Shown here: one piece after another, positions 54,781 to 62,756 of the stretch
How positions within the stretch are numbered: position 1 is the first letter of the stretch
Layout of the letters: the number at the start of each line of letters is the position of its first letter
DNA from: Sneathiellales bacterium
GTDB lineage: Bacteria; Pseudomonadota; Alphaproteobacteria; JANQFL01
NCBI GenBank assembly: GCA_028277845.1
Contig: JANQFL010000029.1
Location: 1 to 64,000 of the forward strand
Direction: 5' to 3'
Length of the DNA: 64,000 bases
Notes under the pieces: generated by a model
The model's input: only the letters and a program-made list of their open reading frames with translations
The model's database searches: none
What the model was told of the DNA's origin: nothing
Program-made: the position numbers and the translations under genes

Positions 54781-54857
54781 GGCGGAGTAGCTCAGCTGGT
54801 TAGAGCAGCGGAATCATAATCCGCGTGTCGGGGGTTCAAGTCCCTCCTCCGCTACCA
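54781..54857 (+). tRNA. tRNA-Met (CAT), elongator type
   Basis: A full cloverleaf of 77 nt with encoded CCA: acceptor GGCGGAG/CTCCGCT (G1-U72 wobble), D arm GCTC/GAGC, anticodon stem GCGGA/TCCGC around loop ATCATAA, T arm GGGGG/CCCTC with TTCAAGT. The anticodon is CAT. Looks like elongator tRNA-Met; a lysidine-modified tRNA-Ile2 is the alternative. Its 3' end borders the island-like region. Confidence 0.95.
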
Positions 54858-55537
54858 ACTTAAGTAATTGAAATCGTTGAAGTATTTGTCACATGGCGCT
54901 GGTGTTCAGGTGGGCCAATCTATTTCGTTGGAGTTCGCAGATGTCTGCGAGATTCTCACGGTCCCACAAGTCCGTATCTTCCTTGGCGTATGAATAGTGC
55001 ATACGTTTGTCGTTTGTTCTGTATGTCATGCTGCGCCAGCCACGCTGAACTTGCGCTGAATTCACCGCGGCTCAAACGCTTTAGCAATCGTTCGCGTGTA
55101 TGGTTAACAATACAGTCTTAGATGTCTTCATTTTTGGACGTTCTGGTTGCTCAACCATAGTCACCCAGTTCTCATTTTCATCGTGCCGAGTGCGTCCCAC
55201 CGGATAAAGTGCGATTCCCTTTTCGAGGCCGTGTCCGAATGGAACGCGAATAGTAACACTCAGTGCGAACAGCCTGCACCCAGGCCACACTTCTTGCTGC
55301 CGGTGGATTGGCAAACCGTGTTGAAAAGCGATTGATTGCCAAGGCAACGTTCCTATTCTCCGTCGCTCGGGACGTGTCCTGGCGTGAAATGCTCAAAATC
55401 AATACGCCGCAAGTCGCAGCGTTGGATTCCCTGTAGAAACACAACATTCCCGTGCTTTGTCGTCTAGAAGTAGCAGGACGAAGCCATTGATGGGCGCTCC
55501 GACGAGAGCCCGTAGGTCAATTTGAGCATTAGTTTTC
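54858..55537. other. Gene-poor region after the tRNA
   Basis: About 680 bp without a supportable gene. Base composition is more AT-rich than the core genes. An 88-codon minus-strand frame (55081-55347) has no recognisable domain or good ribosome-binding site. No repeat of the tRNA 3' end and no integrase was seen in the window. It may be the remnant edge of an integrated element. Confidence 0.5.
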
Positions 55538-55566
55538 TTGGATTCGTTTACGCTTATAAATATAAT
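55538..55566 (+). promoter_or_regulatory. Sigma-70-type promoter of the island operon
   Basis: TTGGAT (55538-55543), a 17-bp spacer and TATAAT (55561-55566): the -10 is perfect, the -35 is 3 of 6. Start of transcription near 55573, upstream of ATG candidates at 55585 and 55621. The surrounding AT-richness contrasts with the high-GC genome. Confidence 0.55.
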
Positions 55567-55620
55567 GGAATTCAATTAAAAATAATGGCTTCCTGCCATA
55601 AATCAAAAAACGGGCGCGTC

Positions 55621-58047
55621 ATGCGGGATATCATCGTCAATTACGGATTTGACAAGCCGAAATCAAATATCTACGGTAGTTTAATTGCCATAGATATAAA
55701 TCGTCACATGGTGGTCAATCCTCCGCGGCTGCCTTTGTTCAGACGAAGATGTCGATATGTATCGATAAAAAGCGGCGTCACGAGCGAGCGCGATATCACG
55801 CGTATTGCGGTTCAGGACATTAAGGGGCGCACGCTGGCGATCGTCATTTCTTATCAAGTCCGCTGTGAACCGGGTAATGAGCCGTCGACCGCTTTGGCGC
55901 TAGCCGGAAACGGCGACGAACCGCAGGAAGCATTCGAACGCCTTCTAGAAAGTTGGGTGTGCGAATTTGCCGATTCCTACGACGATGGCCGGCAGGACTT
56001 TATCGACAATTTCGAATATGCCCGCGAAGGCATGGGCCGTTATCTCAAGGAAAAGGCTCAGTCGACTGTCGGTCTGGATCTTAATCTCGATCTCATTGCC
56101 GAGGGCGAATCAGACGTCGACACGATTCAGATCTCCGATTTCGTGGTCAGCGCGCGACCACACGACGGCGACGAGAACATCGACTTTCGCATTGCGGTGG
56201 ACTTGGAAGTCGCGGACGGCGGCCGCATCAAGGCGGTCGTCGGGCGGCAGGGGCAAAAGGAATTCGAAGAAATCATACGCCGCGTCGTACGTGAAACGAT
56301 CCGGCGTTCGGACTTGGATGACCTGTATTTCAATTTCGACAGCAAAGTCAGGCCGGGTCTGCGGCGAACTATCGATGACGCGGTCGCACCGGAAGGGCGT
56401 CATCTCGCATCCTTCAGTGTCCGGCGTGACAATGTCGATCAGACACCGAAACAGGTGGTCGAAATTGACATGCCGTTGAAGATTCCGCTGCGGGAAGCGC
56501 CGGCGACCGTTGCCGTCACCCATCGGATGCGCCTCAACCTGAACAGCATTACGAATTTCCGCCTGCTGAACATACCGCCAAAAGAGTTCAAGGATTGGGT
56601 CGAAGAGCGTTTGACGGACGCCAGCCGCAACGTCCTGTTCAACAAGGCTTTCGCGGACTTGGTCAAGGATTTCGACCTTGATGAGGCGGCGGTCGGGCAG
56701 GCGATCAATAAGACGATGGCCGAGGCCGGTTACGACGTGAAGATGTACATGATCCTGCCGGAGCTGGAAGCCGTTCGGCTACAGAAGGACGGATTTGAAT
56801 TTGCGATAAAGGGTGATTTCTCGACAAGTGATCCACGCGTGAGTGCAGGCGTCAACATTGCGGTGCGCGGACGCATACCGGATCTGGCCGCCGATGCCAT
56901 CCAGCGCCGGCTCAAACCGCCAAGCGCGGTAGCGGGCACCTCGGGAGTAGATACCTCCCTCTCGCAGGAGATCGTGCGCGCCGCCACAAATGCGGTTCAG
57001 TGGTCGATCCATCGGCTTCGCCCAGACCTGTTCTACCGCTACTTCGACGTGCCATATGCCTCCCGCGAAATCGAACAAGACGACTCTGCTCCAAAGATCC
57101 CTCTCCTGGAAGGCGACACCGTCAACGCGTTTCTAAGACGCGAAGTAGAGGCGGCCCTTCGCAAAGAGTTTGCGGCAGGCAATATCGAGGTGCTGCCTCG
57201 AATCGACCAGAACGATCTGACGCGCCGAATCGTTCAGTTGTGTCAAGGGCAGCGCACGCTGGAGATTGACGTCGTGCCGGTGGCGGACGGCGGCGACGCG
57301 TATCCGGTCACGTTTCAAGTCCGATACAAGATCGACGGTCTGGTCGAAAACGGGTGGTCCGCGTTTCAGAGCAACGCCGGATTTGCCGAACAGACCGAGT
57401 CGGGTGACATCGACATCTCACGCGAAGTAGCGGAAATCACTGGAGCCTTGGAACAGACCGTTCGGGACAAGTTACGCGTGGTTCCCGCGGCGGCTCTCCA
57501 TTACCGTGACTACGCCACCAAGAAAAAGATCGACGCTCTGATCGAAAGCGACATCAAGGACTGCGCGGCGTCCGGGTTTGGCCTCAATATTCAAGTGATC
57601 AGCATCGGCCGTGAGATGACCGACGAGGAAGCCTATCGGTCGAACTATCGCGGCGAAGCCATCCAGGAAACGGAGGAACTGAATAGCCACAACCGGGACA
57701 TGATCCGTCAAAGTCAGGTGGCAAGTCAGAGACAGCTGCATGAAATGTCGGAGCAAATTCAGAAACTCCGCGAAGAGCGCACGGGTTTGTTGGCGAGTGT
57801 CATGGCCGCGGAAGAAGAAGACCGCATCGAAATGCTGGACGAGGAGATCAAGTCACTCGAGGCGGAGAGAAAACGGCTAGTGAGCAAGGTGCGTAACACG
57901 CTACCGGTCAAACCCAACACACAGTCCTCGGACGCCGAATTTGATTTCGACAGCATGAAAGGCAACGGCGCGCCAAAAATCGAACCGCCCCCTCCAACGG
58001 ACGACATCACGCCGGCGGTGGAGGTGCAGCCGGAAGACGATGATTAG
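55621..58047 (+). CDS. Large tandem SPFH/band-7-like repeat protein with C-terminal coiled coil
   Basis: 808 residues from ATG 55621 (ATG 55585 and TTG 55522 are in frame; the promoter at 55538-55566 makes the TTG unlikely). Four to five related alpha/beta units follow one another, at about 70-180, 187-275, 295-380, 410-540 and 560-665. Each has a beta strand of the type DFRIAVDLEV or YPVTFQVRYKID, long charged helices (FEEIIRRVVRETIRRSDLDD) and a closing strand such as HLASFSVRRD. This resembles SPFH/PHB (stomatin-flotillin) units. A coiled coil at about 690-760 and an acidic Pro-rich tail follow. No membrane helix. Function unknown; scaffold role inferred. Confidence 0.7.
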   Translation: MRDIIVNYGFDKPKSNIYGSLIAIDINRHMVVNPPRLPLFRRRCRYVSIKSGVTSERDITRIAVQDIKGRTLAIVISYQVRCEPGNEPSTALALAGNGDEPQEAFERLLESWVCEFADSYDDGRQDFIDNFEYAREGMGRYLKEKAQSTVGLDLNLDLIAEGESDVDTIQISDFVVSARPHDGDENIDFRIAVDLEVADGGRIKAVVGRQGQKEFEEIIRRVVRETIRRSDLDDLYFNFDSKVRPGLRRTIDDAVAPEGRHLASFSVRRDNVDQTPKQVVEIDMPLKIPLREAPATVAVTHRMRLNLNSITNFRLLNIPPKEFKDWVEERLTDASRNVLFNKAFADLVKDFDLDEAAVGQAINKTMAEAGYDVKMYMILPELEAVRLQKDGFEFAIKGDFSTSDPRVSAGVNIAVRGRIPDLAADAIQRRLKPPSAVAGTSGVDTSLSQEIVRAATNAVQWSIHRLRPDLFYRYFDVPYASREIEQDDSAPKIPLLEGDTVNAFLRREVEAALRKEFAAGNIEVLPRIDQNDLTRRIVQLCQGQRTLEIDVVPVADGGDAYPVTFQVRYKIDGLVENGWSAFQSNAGFAEQTESGDIDISREVAEITGALEQTVRDKLRVVPAAALHYRDYATKKKIDALIESDIKDCAASGFGLNIQVISIGREMTDEEAYRSNYRGEAIQETEELNSHNRDMIRQSQVASQRQLHEMSEQIQKLREERTGLLASVMAAEEEDRIEMLDEEIKSLEAERKRLVSKVRNTLPVKPNTQSSDAEFDFDSMKGNGAPKIEPPPPTDDITPAVEVQPEDDD

Positions 58048-58101: not shown

Positions 58102-58467
58102 ATGAGCGAAGTCGAAATTCTTGTTAAGGCGATTTTCAGTTGGGTCGGACAAAAAGGGGTGTATCGGCTGCTCGAAATCTTCAAGCGAAAAAACGTGAAG
58201 ATTGAAGACGACAAGGAGTTGGTGGAATCGATTGAAGCGGCCAAACAGGGCGTGACGAGCGAAGCACTCGTGCAAAAAGTCGTCACTGTTCTCCGTGAAA
58301 ACGACCTGCTTTCCGATCCGGATGTACAGACGTTGTTGCAGGAGGCCAAGACGGCTGAGAAAGAGGCGGGTGGAATCAACATACATACAAAGACCCAGCA
58401 CGCCGGCAATGTCGCCGGAAAAATCGATACTGTAAATCAGACGTTTAACTTTGACAGAAAGAGCTGA
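58102..58467 (+). CDS. Small unrecognised protein with a C-terminal motif shared with the next gene
   Basis: 121 residues from ATG 58102 (GGGAG about 9 nt upstream; a TTG at 58075 is in frame). Helical, charged body (MSEVEILVKAIFSWVGQKGV; ELVESIEAAKQGVTSEALVQ) and a C-terminal 16-residue motif GNVAGKIDTVNQTFNF (residues 102-117), close to a motif in the following protein. Small helical proteins with a C-terminal signalling motif beside a large partner with the same motif are known in amyloid-motif signalling pairs; here that is an inference. Second gene of the island operon, 54 bp after the first. Confidence 0.7.
   Translation: MSEVEILVKAIFSWVGQKGVYRLLEIFKRKNVKIEDDKELVESIEAAKQGVTSEALVQKVVTVLRENDLLSDPDVQTLLQEAKTAEKEAGGINIHTKTQHAGNVAGKIDTVNQTFNFDRKS
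58405..58452 (+). repeat. Shared motif, copy 1 (C-terminus of the 121-residue protein)
   Basis: Encodes GNVAGKIDTVNQTFNF. Ten of 16 residues (G, N, V, A, K, I, V, Q, F and F among them, with N before the last F) are retained in copy 2 at 59094-59141. Confidence 0.8.
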
Positions 58468-58538
58468 CACGGGGTAGCGCGACGGGTTCGGGGCCGTAGG
58501 CTCAACGTCAAAACGGTCGGCACGGCAAGGAACGCCCG

Positions 58539-61500
58539 ATGAATGACGAGGAGATTGAAAAACCCAACGGGGCGCCAGCGGATAATGTGTCTGGAGAGCC
58601 CTCACCTTCGCCATCTTCAAGTACTGAAGCGCCGCGCGATGAAAGCGCGGAGGGGCAAGCGCCCATTGACCCGGATACCGCACCGTCATCAACCGAACCC
58701 GGCCCCCCGATCAATGCCAGCCCTCACGATGACGACGAGATAACCGATCAATCATCAACAGGCGTTCAACCGGATACGGCGGTAGAAACCGGTTCTGAGG
58801 CGTTGCATCGGAACGATGAGCAAGAACCGGTCGAGGCGCCTGATCAATCGGGTACGCCAACAGATCGTGGAAGTGGCGATCAGGACGAAGGCCAAACGCG
58901 ACGGCCGCGAGCTGGTGAAGAAGCGACCTCGCACGCCGGCAAGAAGACGAGGGCGGACGATGGTCTGAAAGATTCGCCGGATCTCGGCAATTCCAACGGC
59001 GACGGCGAACATAAGAAAACGCGTAACGACGATCTTCAGGAAGGCAACGAACAGCGAAGAAAAACGACCGTAAACGCCGACGCTGAAATCGTTGGCAATG
59101 TCGCCGAGAAAATCGAAAAGGTAAGTCAGAGATTCAACTTCAATTTTCCCGGTTCGGACGGGGCGGACAAGCAAAGATACGGAAATTTGCGTCCGATAGA
59201 GTTATCGGGCATGGGGCTGCAACTCTCCATATTCGGGGGGAGCGATGTCGCAACGAGTCTACAGTCGGACCGGTACTGTATCGTCGTCGGGCTCGACGAG
59301 GAGTATCGCAACGCGGCGGCCAAGGCATTGGTTCGGCCACTGCTCGAGAACGGCTACGAGCTCAGAATGTACGACCCGCCCAGATTGGACGCCGATCAAG
59401 GGGCGGACCGGGATTACAGCTTTGAACCGCTTGAAGTTACCCTACGAGACCAGGCCGACACGCCGACCGTGGTGTGCATGGAAGTTGAGAGCGGTGCCCC
59501 TTTCCCCGAATTCCTGAAAACCGGTTTTCGCAGAGCAAATCTATCGCGCTGTTTAATTGATGGTCCGTGCGGTGACGGGGGCGCGCAAGGGCATTGCCTT
59601 GTGGTTCTGTTTAAACTCGCCGATTGGCGTGAGGCGCATCGGGGCAGACGTACCGGTGATATGAAGGTTCCCGCCTGGACCGTCGATTGGCTGCGCCCAC
59701 GATTAAGAATGCTTTCGCCGGATTTAGCGGAAATCTCCCAAATTGCCGACCGCATCGACGCCCAACGCAGAGACGGTCTGTGGCAACGCGATGACGAAGC
59801 CTTCCATAACCAGATTGTCGAACTGTTGGAGCGTGCGAGTGCCGGTCCAAATCCGATACGGGTGGTAAAGGACGAACTCGCGGCGCGTGACGAGCTAACA
59901 CCCGAACCTGTGACGGGTTCCGTATTGCCTGAAGATCCCTTGGGTCTTGTCCTGGTTTTCTCGGCCGCCTTTTTTCCCGACATCTCCATCAGCAATTTTC
60001 GCGAAATCGCCGACCACTTGATCCCGGTTGCATTGGATTTGTCCCATCCGTCATCAAAGGCATCGGCCGGTTCGGATACGGCCGGCACCGGCGAATTCGC
60101 CGACACAAGACAAGACGCCGCCAAGGATGCGAATACTTCGAAAAGCCATGGCGAACTCGACGAAGACGAGGCGTCCTGGAGAAACTGGAAGAGCCGGCCG
60201 GACGATGCGCTGTCCCGCTACAACTTGGCGTCGGTTCGGGCATCGGATTCCGTCGTATCCATCGGGTTCGAGAAGGGATTGGACGCCGAAGACCAGCGCA
60301 ACGCGATGGTCAACCAACGCCCCTTGATCGTGGAGAAGTTCATCCGTGAAATGGTGGAATCGGATCTGTTGCGCCGGCTGGATCCTTCTCGCTCGGTCAT
60401 CGGCGCGTCGATCCGCTTGATTTTCCACTCTGCGGTCCTGGGCCTGCTGTCCGATGAGAACCTTGCACGCGAGTTGGGCACGCTGTTGAACCGCTTTGTT
60501 CCTCGCAGAGACGTTGACGAGGAAGAGGATGCCGACCCGTCCGGTCAGCAAGAAACGGTGGCTGGACAACGCGCGTCTCAACGGAGCGGACCTCCATCGC
60601 AGATGGATAGTCTTCGCGGACGTGCCGCAGTCAGCGAAATCGCGGCTGTATTCAACGAGACGACACAGGAGGATCTCGAGCGGTATTGGCACATCTTGTC
60701 GCTTACTTTCAAGGCGCAGTTCGATCCGGGCGGCTTTGGTGGTGGCTTGCGTCAATTGCTGGATAAACGTCGTGATCGCGGTCACGTGATCGTTCGCTAT
60801 GTATGTTATGGGCTTGGACGGAAATTCGGCTATTTCAACGGGGTAGATCTCGGTTCCTGGCTCAAGCGAATTTGCTCCGAAGCGGATTTGTATCATGGGA
60901 ATTGGATTGGTTGGCGCCTGTCCGAAGATATCTTCGATCAGCCGGAAGATGCCTTTCGGATTCTTGAGATGCTCTATCAGTGGCTGCCGGAAAACGACGT
61001 GAATACCGCCAACCCACCACGGGCAGCCGTGGTTGCGACAGGCATATTCATGCGTGTTCTCACACGCTCGAACAAGGATGGCGCAAGCATCAAGGCGGTA
61101 AGCGATCTGTCGTGGCACCCGCTGTTCGGCACAATCAACTCCGATCCGAAAGAGTTCGCCAACCACATCCACCTCATCGCCGTCTGGCTGTTGCACCCCT
61201 GCGTCGACGTCGTTGAATTTGAGGAGAATGCATATAATGAACAGTATGCCCAACAGGAAGGTCAACTCGACATCACCCCCCGCGCCATCGGTATCGCCCG
61301 GCTCGGCGTGGTGCTGTTGGGTCAAAACAGGAAAGAGGTCAATAAGGAAGGGGCGCGGATCTGGGACGGGATCGTTACGGAAATCGGCACATTACTCGCC
61401 AACGATCGTCCGGACCTAGAACTTCACATGGAAATGGCCCATCTGATTGACGAGCTTGATCGGAACGTTCGGATTGTCGACGACATTGCGCGCTTTGTTG

Positions 61501-61634
61501 CCCGTAAGGGCCAAAGCCTTGCGCAATTAAAGGCAATACGCCGGCAATTCATGGCGATGGGTCGTATTAGCCGCCGCTTCTTGCGCGCACTTCCGCGCCG
61601 GCGATCAGGCCGGCGTGCACCGTCAAACCGCTAG
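58539..61634 (+). CDS. Large unrecognised protein with acidic disordered N-terminus and shared motif
   Basis: 1031 residues. Residues 1-180 are acidic, Pro/Ser/Thr/Asp-rich and disordered. At 186-201 lies GNVAEKIEKVSQRFNF, near-identical to the C-terminal motif of the preceding protein. Residues 215-330 look alpha/beta; IVVGLDEEYRNAAAKALVRP (248-267) sits where a P-loop would be but has no GKS/T. The second half is helical, including RYVCYGLGRKFGYFNG and a Trp-rich section. A strongly basic end (RRFLRALPRRRSGRRAPSNR) closes it. No family recognised; a degenerate STAND-like or other conflict-system receptor is possible. It ends 12 bp into the convergent lipoprotein gene. Confidence 0.7.
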   Translation: MNDEEIEKPNGAPADNVSGEPSPSPSSSTEAPRDESAEGQAPIDPDTAPSSTEPGPPINASPHDDDEITDQSSTGVQPDTAVETGSEALHRNDEQEPVEAPDQSGTPTDRGSGDQDEGQTRRPRAGEEATSHAGKKTRADDGLKDSPDLGNSNGDGEHKKTRNDDLQEGNEQRRKTTVNADAEIVGNVAEKIEKVSQRFNFNFPGSDGADKQRYGNLRPIELSGMGLQLSIFGGSDVATSLQSDRYCIVVGLDEEYRNAAAKALVRPLLENGYELRMYDPPRLDADQGADRDYSFEPLEVTLRDQADTPTVVCMEVESGAPFPEFLKTGFRRANLSRCLIDGPCGDGGAQGHCLVVLFKLADWREAHRGRRTGDMKVPAWTVDWLRPRLRMLSPDLAEISQIADRIDAQRRDGLWQRDDEAFHNQIVELLERASAGPNPIRVVKDELAARDELTPEPVTGSVLPEDPLGLVLVFSAAFFPDISISNFREIADHLIPVALDLSHPSSKASAGSDTAGTGEFADTRQDAAKDANTSKSHGELDEDEASWRNWKSRPDDALSRYNLASVRASDSVVSIGFEKGLDAEDQRNAMVNQRPLIVEKFIREMVESDLLRRLDPSRSVIGASIRLIFHSAVLGLLSDENLARELGTLLNRFVPRRDVDEEEDADPSGQQETVAGQRASQRSGPPSQMDSLRGRAAVSEIAAVFNETTQEDLERYWHILSLTFKAQFDPGGFGGGLRQLLDKRRDRGHVIVRYVCYGLGRKFGYFNGVDLGSWLKRICSEADLYHGNWIGWRLSEDIFDQPEDAFRILEMLYQWLPENDVNTANPPRAAVVATGIFMRVLTRSNKDGASIKAVSDLSWHPLFGTINSDPKEFANHIHLIAVWLLHPCVDVVEFEENAYNEQYAQQEGQLDITPRAIGIARLGVVLLGQNRKEVNKEGARIWDGIVTEIGTLLANDRPDLELHMEMAHLIDELDRNVRIVDDIARFVARKGQSLAQLKAIRRQFMAMGRISRRFLRALPRRRSGRRAPSNR
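59094..59141 (+). repeat. Shared motif, copy 2 (residues 186-201 of the large protein)
   Basis: Encodes GNVAEKIEKVSQRFNF, following the disordered region. See copy 1 at 58405-58452; the two DNA copies also agree in much of AAAATCGA and CAGA phrasing but are diverged at third positions. Confidence 0.8.
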
Positions 61635-62756
61635 CAGCACATCGATCGTTTCCGCTTTTTCTTCCAGGAAGGCGAAGTCGGATTCCTGCTGTGCCTTTAG
61701 TTCCGCCTGCTTCGTGACATAGTGTTGGACAGGCGGTGCATTGGTCGGCAGGTCGGCCTCGGTCACCTTTGGCCGTCTGGTGGGCGCGTCGGGTTTTGTC
61801 GGTTGCTCTTCCGCCTGTACCGCCACTTCCGGGCCTTTGAGCAGCGTGCGGTAAACAAACCCGTCCTTGCCGGAGAACCGGACGCGGTACCAATCCGCCG
61901 GTTGTGAACCGTCGGCAATCACAGTCACGGTTTTGCCTTTCGGGATCAAACCCAAGACATCCGACCGTACCGAAGGTGCGCGGCGAACATTGGAATTCTT
62001 GAGAGCGACAAAAAGTCCGGTATCTGCGGTTTCCGTTTTCGGTTGCGATTCCGTTTGGGCGGGCGGGGGCGTCCACAGAGTGGGTTCATACCGGCCGGCC
62101 GCACCCAGCATCGTATCCTTGTTCACATCACGTGCCACGGCGGATGCATCCACATAAGCCGTGCCGCGTTCGTCGACCTTGCCGAATATCTCCTGCACCA
62201 AGCTGTTGTCATTTCGAATGGCTGTGCGAATGGCCTCCAGTTTCGTCTTGCCCGTGGCCTTGTCGATAAGGCCGGCCTGCAGGTCGTCGGCTAGGCGATC
62301 AAGCTGGTCTTGCCGGCAGTCATTGAGCTGCCGAAGCGATTTTCCCAGTGCGGTCATTCTGTAGTTGTCCCGTGTAATGTCGGAGTTTATGGATCCGATA
62401 AGTTCCTGACGCGATTTAGCGCGCGCGGCTTTGGCGCGTAGGTACCCGGCGCCGAGGCCCGCCGTTAGCCCGGCCAGACCGCCGATCACCGCCGCCTCTC
62501 CGCGCTTTTTACCGCCGAACAGGAGACCGGCGCCTGCTCCGATAAGGGCACCAACGACGGCCGATTCCACGATTTTTTCGTTGAAGTGCTCCTGAGACTG
62601 GAAGATCGGCTCGCGATATGCCTGACACACGTCTCCGGCAACCGTATATTTGTTGCGCAAACCCGTTGCAGTGACACACCCGGTTAACACCAGGCTCACA
62701 CCGACCAGTCCGGCGACGACCCGCGTTCCCAGTTTGGCTGTCCTTTTTCCCGGCAT
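61623..62756 (-). CDS. Lipoprotein with glycine zipper and SH3-like domain
   Basis: 377 residues: signal peptide with lipobox VLTGC (Cys27), a glycine-zipper membrane segment at about 66-105 (VGALIGAGAGLLFGGKKRGE, GLAGLTAGLGAGYL), a helical region, and an SH3b domain at about 250-310 (NVRRAPSVRSDVLGLIPKGK, WYRVRFSGKDGFVYRTLL), which can bind peptidoglycan or peptides. The C-terminal tail is Pro-rich. Starts 14 bp after the FGE-like gene and converges on the large plus-strand gene, overlapping its end by 12 bp. Confidence 0.85.
   Translation of the reverse strand: MPGKRTAKLGTRVVAGLVGVSLVLTGCVTATGLRNKYTVAGDVCQAYREPIFQSQEHFNEKIVESAVVGALIGAGAGLLFGGKKRGEAAVIGGLAGLTAGLGAGYLRAKAARAKSRQELIGSINSDITRDNYRMTALGKSLRQLNDCRQDQLDRLADDLQAGLIDKATGKTKLEAIRTAIRNDNSLVQEIFGKVDERGTAYVDASAVARDVNKDTMLGAAGRYEPTLWTPPPAQTESQPKTETADTGLFVALKNSNVRRAPSVRSDVLGLIPKGKTVTVIADGSQPADWYRVRFSGKDGFVYRTLLKGPEVAVQAEEQPTKPDAPTRRPKVTEADLPTNAPPVQHYVTKQAELKAQQESDFAFLEEKAETIDVLLAV

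Follow-up and report, generated by a model that had tools for sequence, protein, structure and literature searches.

The tRNA-Met island and its two convergent operons

The window analysed here is a stretch of 64,000 nt that forms positions 1 to 64,000 of contig JANQFL010000029.1 from a Sneathiellales bacterium; the features under study and their locations are given in Table 1. Towards the end of the window, the 3' end of a tRNA-Met gene carries 46 bp that recur exactly further along the contig. The two repeats enclose an island of 15 kb with nine sizeable genes, and the GC content falls at the island boundary. No recognisable integrase was found among the island ORFs. The repeat is found again at positions 76955-76977 of the contig, where it is exact over 23 bp and imperfect over a longer stretch, which suggests that a second element lies behind the first as two tandem islands. 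Among the genes of this second element are one for a universal-stress-like protein and one resembling cation-transporting P-type ATPases, again with no integrase recognised.

Table 1. Location of the island features (window positions unless the contig is named).
Feature	Position	Strand	Basis
tRNA-Met 3' end, island boundary	54813..54858	+	Exact 46-bp repeat at contig 70163-70208
P0003, up to 841 aa, SPFH/Band_7-like, predicted C-terminal coiled coil, opens the operon	55522..58047	+	Band_7 match
GNGAPKIE, a possible motif half-copy towards the P0003 C-terminus	57961..57984	+	6/8 identical to copy 2; marginal
P0001, 121 aa, five-helix domain (model) and motif tail, proposed small effector or partner	58102..58467	+	Single-sequence AlphaFold2
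Motif copy 1, GNVAGKIDTVNQTFNF	58405..58452	+	P0001 tail, residues 102-117 of 121; read directly
P0002, 1031 aa, proposed scaffold or receptor: disordered N-terminus, motif, large region	58539..61634	+	ORF, family and Walker A searches
Motif copy 2, GNVAEKIEKVSQRFNF	59094..59141	+	P0002 residues 186-201 of 1031, after the disordered N-terminus; read directly
TagQ-like lipoprotein, 377 aa, glycine zipper and SH3 domain	61623..62756	-	NCBIfam VI_TagQ, SH3_3
FGE-sulfatase (TagR-like) protein, 685 aa	62771..64000, to contig 64828 beyond the window	-	FGE-sulfatase, E=1e-16

Three of the island genes occur in the order P0003-P0001-P0002 on the same strand. Convergent to them is a second operon that encodes a 270-aa protein with a transmembrane (TM) segment and a Sel1-like tail, a VWA protein, an ABC ATPase, an FtsX permease, an FGE-sulfatase protein and a TagQ-like lipoprotein.

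P0003 reaches its full length from a TTG start, with ATG codons at 55585 or 55621 as other possible starts. Its similarity to Band_7 (E=6.4e-5) scores 23.5 bits, just under the cut-off of 23.6, and its C-terminal coiled coil is predicted from weak family matches. A PADLOC match to PbeC (1.7e-6), which falls in the C-terminal part that includes this coiled coil, was set aside. For P0001, which would have 130 aa if an alternative upstream TTG were used, one single-sequence AlphaFold2 model shows helices at residues 3-15, 17-29, 38-48, 54-66 and 73-88 (pLDDT about 72-90) followed by a tail (residues 91-121) that is disordered in the model and contains the motif described below. P0001 matched no Pfam, NCBIfam or PADLOC family, and a fold search with the model gave a best E of 9. 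In P0002, the more than 800 residues that follow the motif contain no known domain (Pfam, NCBIfam, PADLOC) and no Walker A motif; its structure model, with a mean pLDDT of 36, is too poor for a fold search.

No convincing relative of P0002 was found in 58 and a further 385 genomes, in a contig scan of 84,980 species or in viral contigs, plasmids and phages; weak matches among the 385 genomes covered 37-87 residues at 14-17 bits. Likewise, the searches run with P0003 and P0001 returned nothing convincing. The contig scans require near-exact matches of 8 residues and therefore miss all but close relatives.

A 16-residue motif common to adjacent genes

The first-pass annotation of this DNA had reported that P0001 and P0002 have a 16-residue motif in common, and this was confirmed, with 11/16 residues and 38/48 nucleotides identical between the two copies. 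The position described for it in the small protein, at the C-terminus, holds insofar as the motif lies in the tail, but four residues (DRKS) come after it. Its placement in the large protein, behind a disordered N-terminus, was borne out: the N-terminal part ahead of the motif (about 185 residues) is 90% disorder-promoting and 8% hydrophobic, both values being those obtained for the preceding 183 residues.

Several comparisons bear on whether such a similarity could be fortuitous. None of 5,000 shuffles of P0001 matched P0002 at more than 9/16 residues, and the real pair ranks at the top of the 1,953 pairs formed by 63 chosen ORFs of the contig, while the other 61 adjacent ORF pairs of the contig reach at most 8/16. 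A gapped local alignment of the two proteins has a score of 60, corresponding to a Gumbel p of ca. 8e-4 for a single pair. Identical codons encode 9 of the 11 shared residues, whereas local codon usage in the three genes predicts 4.7 (p = 0.009), so that common DNA ancestry of the two copies is likelier than convergence. The DNA flanking them shows no similarity. A duplication is thus likely; most simply, one of the genes received a short segment from the other, and the G/N/V/A/I/Q/F positions have been maintained by selection since then.

A chance similarity, or an idle duplication devoid of function, would be compatible with the occurrence of a single pair in a single genome with no relatives showing conservation, and the gapped p value, once multiplied by the 62 adjacent pairs, is alone only ca. 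0.05. This explanation is nevertheless very unlikely given that the ungapped identity was never reached by shuffling and is the highest of all pairs, in adjacent genes moreover, that the codon agreement is above expectation and that the G/N/V/A/I/Q/F positions were kept while others changed.

No third full copy of the motif was found in the 5.39-Mb genome. Applied to 385 other genomes of this class, a motif profile performed at chance level: its 8 matches (E 0.018-0.1) fall in unrelated or broken frames. P0003 has a possible half-copy towards its C-terminus, and among 150 shuffles of this protein one scored equally well. If the half-copy is counted, the motif may be present throughout the three-gene operon.

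Comparison with Bell/NLR pairs and modes of motif pairing

Amyloid signalling in bacteria is known for NLR-type receptors, mainly of filamentous actinobacteria and cyanobacteria (PMC7889193), and bacterial amyloid signalling sequences (BASS) occur in Bell/NLR gene pairs (PMC7889193, PMC8086366). Controls were collected by a scan of 84,980 species that yielded 21 Bell-type loci (L074-L094), mostly cyanobacterial and including two from Chloroflexota. This search was seeded with a generic consensus of the helical domain that contained no motif; conclusions rest on the database sequences that were found. The small proteins of the control loci match the Pfam family HetE-N, and in most of these loci the large protein encoded next shows the small protein's C-terminal motif again, close to its N-terminus.

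P0001 and P0002 are similar to a signalling-amyloid pair in how the motif is placed, how far it is shared and what its composition is. As in Bell/NLR pairs, the two genes are adjacent, the smaller one encoding a helical protein whose tail contains the motif and the larger one a protein that has it on the N-terminal side. The degree of sharing is the same, control pairs having scores of 41-67 and 6-10/16 identities against 60 and 11/16 for P0001/P0002. Using a composition score that was trained on the control motifs and ranked against background windows, the P0001 copy fell at the 99.97th percentile and the P0002 copy at the 99.42nd, similar to the controls when one family was left out at a time (92.5-99.97). 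In contrast, an hhalign comparison with the control Bell alignment gave no match.

The two members of the pair nonetheless differ from their Bell/NLR counterparts. P0001 has no match to the Bell family HetE-N (PF20701) in Pfam at E<=1, and hhalign returned a probability of 2.6%; these two results rule out that it is a plain Bell protein. Its length, its number of helices and a faint HMM similarity to Bell/HetE-N (8.1 bits, a value reached by 8 of 2,000 shuffles) leave room for a relation that may be remote. Regarding P0002, the reading as an NLR-like partner is not supported by the data, since this protein has neither a Walker A motif (P-loop) nor a match to the NACHT, NB-ARC or STAND families. 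The motif of P0002 starts at residue 186, after 185 disordered residues, whereas the matches of the controls lie within about the first 60 residues, and the operon has an extra SPFH-like gene. The host is also a proteobacterium, unlike the filamentous actinobacteria and cyanobacteria named for BASS (PMC7889193). Hence, the BASS-beside-NLR arrangement initially proposed is partly supported: adjacency, layout, sharing, composition and the modelled helix-plus-tail anatomy of P0001 agree with it, while an NLR, a Bell domain and a motif at the N-terminus find no support. Because there is no HetE-N match and no NLR NTPase, and because the motif is far from the N-terminus, the pair was not filed as a BASS pair, though it may work like one.

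In 372 genomes of the class, Bell proteins gave no convincing match, the one noted being of 25 residues at E=0.004. Two loci met in the searches deserve a separate mention. The Paraburkholderia plasmid NZ_AP023181.1 (L072, 7881-8246) encodes a small Bell-like protein that ends in a C-terminal motif; the start of its helical domain appears altered, and no NLR-like gene is evident beside it. In Ktedonobacter (L094, 6275-8104 and 8710-11448), two consecutive large genes begin with a motif near-identical to that in the tail of the preceding Bell protein.

The beta-compatible alternation of Val, Ile and Phe that had been described is not a simple one, but V3/I7 and V10/F14/F16 form two registers that would fit a beta-arch. 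Taken alone, assembly of the motifs in a beta or amyloid-type manner is possible but doubtful. The spacing of V3, I7, V10 and F14 (4-3-4) also fits an amphipathic helix, and the motif could pair P0001 with P0002 in this form or as a short coiled coil. The P0002 copy has a mean helix propensity of 1.06 against 1.01 for beta and appears helical in the model, whose confidence is very low; its E, K and R residues are helix-compatible, which was counted against the explanation favoured below. The P0001 copy, however, has many G, N, T and D residues and is unsuited to a helix (helix 0.94, beta 1.10), it is disordered in the model, and 16 residues would make a short coiled coil, so that helical pairing is quite unlikely.

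The motif could alternatively be a docking element, both copies of which bind a common third partner, for instance P0003 or the TM protein of the envelope operon, with no mutual templating. Shared short linear motifs usually indicate a common binder, both copies are situated in flexible regions, and a third gene of the operon, P0003, is co-directional. The amyloid-like composition and the Bell/NLR-like layout speak against docking, and the possible half-copy in P0003 weakly favours self-pairing instead. Overall, docking is considered rather doubtful.

The Tag/VWA envelope module and a putative output on the island

The convergent operon brings together homologues of TagQ, TagR, TagS and TagT, as indicated by TagQ-like, FGE-sulfatase, FtsX and ABC_tran matches, that of the lipoprotein to VI_TagQ (E=2.3e-15) being below the curated cut-off. 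In Pseudomonas aeruginosa, TagQRST senses outer-membrane damage and starts the H1 type VI system (PMC11881912). The island resembles the TagQRST-PpkA pathway in that a TagQ-like lipoprotein, an FGE-domain (TagR-like) protein, an FtsX-like permease and an ABC ATPase occur in one operon, together with the VWA protein. It differs from it in that no kinase was recognised among the island ORFs and TssM, of type VI secretion, had no match in the genome; P0003-P0001-P0002 are carried instead.

Of 385 genomes of the class, about 20 encode a near full-length relative of the VWA protein, and the genes around it are often the same Tag-like ones. In the loci of this class that were examined further (L041, L043, L049-L054, L059, L096-L103), the VWA/Tag module adjoins SrfB and SrfC, a tubulin-like gene (Tubulin_2), or the TssM/TagF/PP2C/kinase genes of type VI secretion. 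A SrfABC-Tag neighbourhood has also been noted in host-associated Deltaproteobacteria (PMC3608642). SrfB had no match in the present genome, though the control genomes gave none either. The SrfB/SrfC and tubulin-like operons thus have the same VWA/Tag module as the island but wholly different cytosolic genes. Relatives of P0001-P0003 were present in none of the 21 other Tag loci that were read, ruling out that the operon is part of every Tag locus. The VWA/TagTSRQ-like envelope module is apparently an exchangeable sensor front end. Since it stands beside varied outputs elsewhere and TssM had no match here, the island seems to combine this front end with another cytosolic output, one not described so far.

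Further parallels exist with the effector-associated domain (EAD) and inactive STAND systems (PMC7159879, PMC8195603), in which one adaptor is copied onto a core and an adjacent protein, and in which a large core without an active P-loop has a VWA and an FGE-type protein nearby. The adaptor of EAD systems is a folded domain rather than a motif of 16 residues; in contrast to inactive STAND systems, no MoxR partner was recognised among the island ORFs and P0002 matches no STAND family.

The best explanation for the whole, which is put forward tentatively, is an envelope-damage response located on a tRNA-Met island, with P0001 and P0002 joined by a homotypic motif. From the joint mobility of the two convergent operons we infer their joint action, and the coupling of the halves, the direction of the signal, the action of P0001 and every other functional step below are proposed on the same conditional footing. 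P0003-P0001-P0002 would constitute the cytosolic output half and the TagQ/TagR/TagS/TagT/VWA-like operon the other half. Envelope damage would be relayed by the TagQ/TagR/TagS/TagT/VWA-like proteins and the TM protein to a cytosolic P0003/P0002 complex, and activation or clustering of P0002, with the SPFH-like P0003, would expose the motifs on a long flexible tether. The motif of P0002 could then recruit and template that in the tail of P0001, whose predicted five-helix domain would oligomerise and act, for example on the membrane. The observed basis of this proposal is the motif pair with its placement and likely duplication, the helix-plus-tail anatomy seen in one model, and the island flanked by an exact repeat. 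Counting against it are that the searches found no convincing relatives of the three proteins, that P0001 matches no Bell family and P0002 no NLR family, that the two operons are convergent, and that the operon is absent from the 21 other Tag loci.

This arrangement suggests that the island may be a new cell-envelope alarm working via motif-to-motif assembly. In a more specific version, a non-NLR scaffold (P0002, acting with the SPFH-like P0003) would respond to envelope damage sensed by the TagQRST/VWA-like module and template the motif, then prion-like, of a small effector with a helical domain. This version would represent amyloid-type signalling outside the NLR world in a Gram-negative proteobacterium, and is regarded as unlikely. 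If true, the occurrence of such a motif pair without an NLR, on an island with an envelope-damage sensor, would mean that a sensor of quite another kind can be connected to amyloid-type wiring. The TagQRST/VWA module would then look like an interchangeable front end serving at least four outputs that differ from one another.
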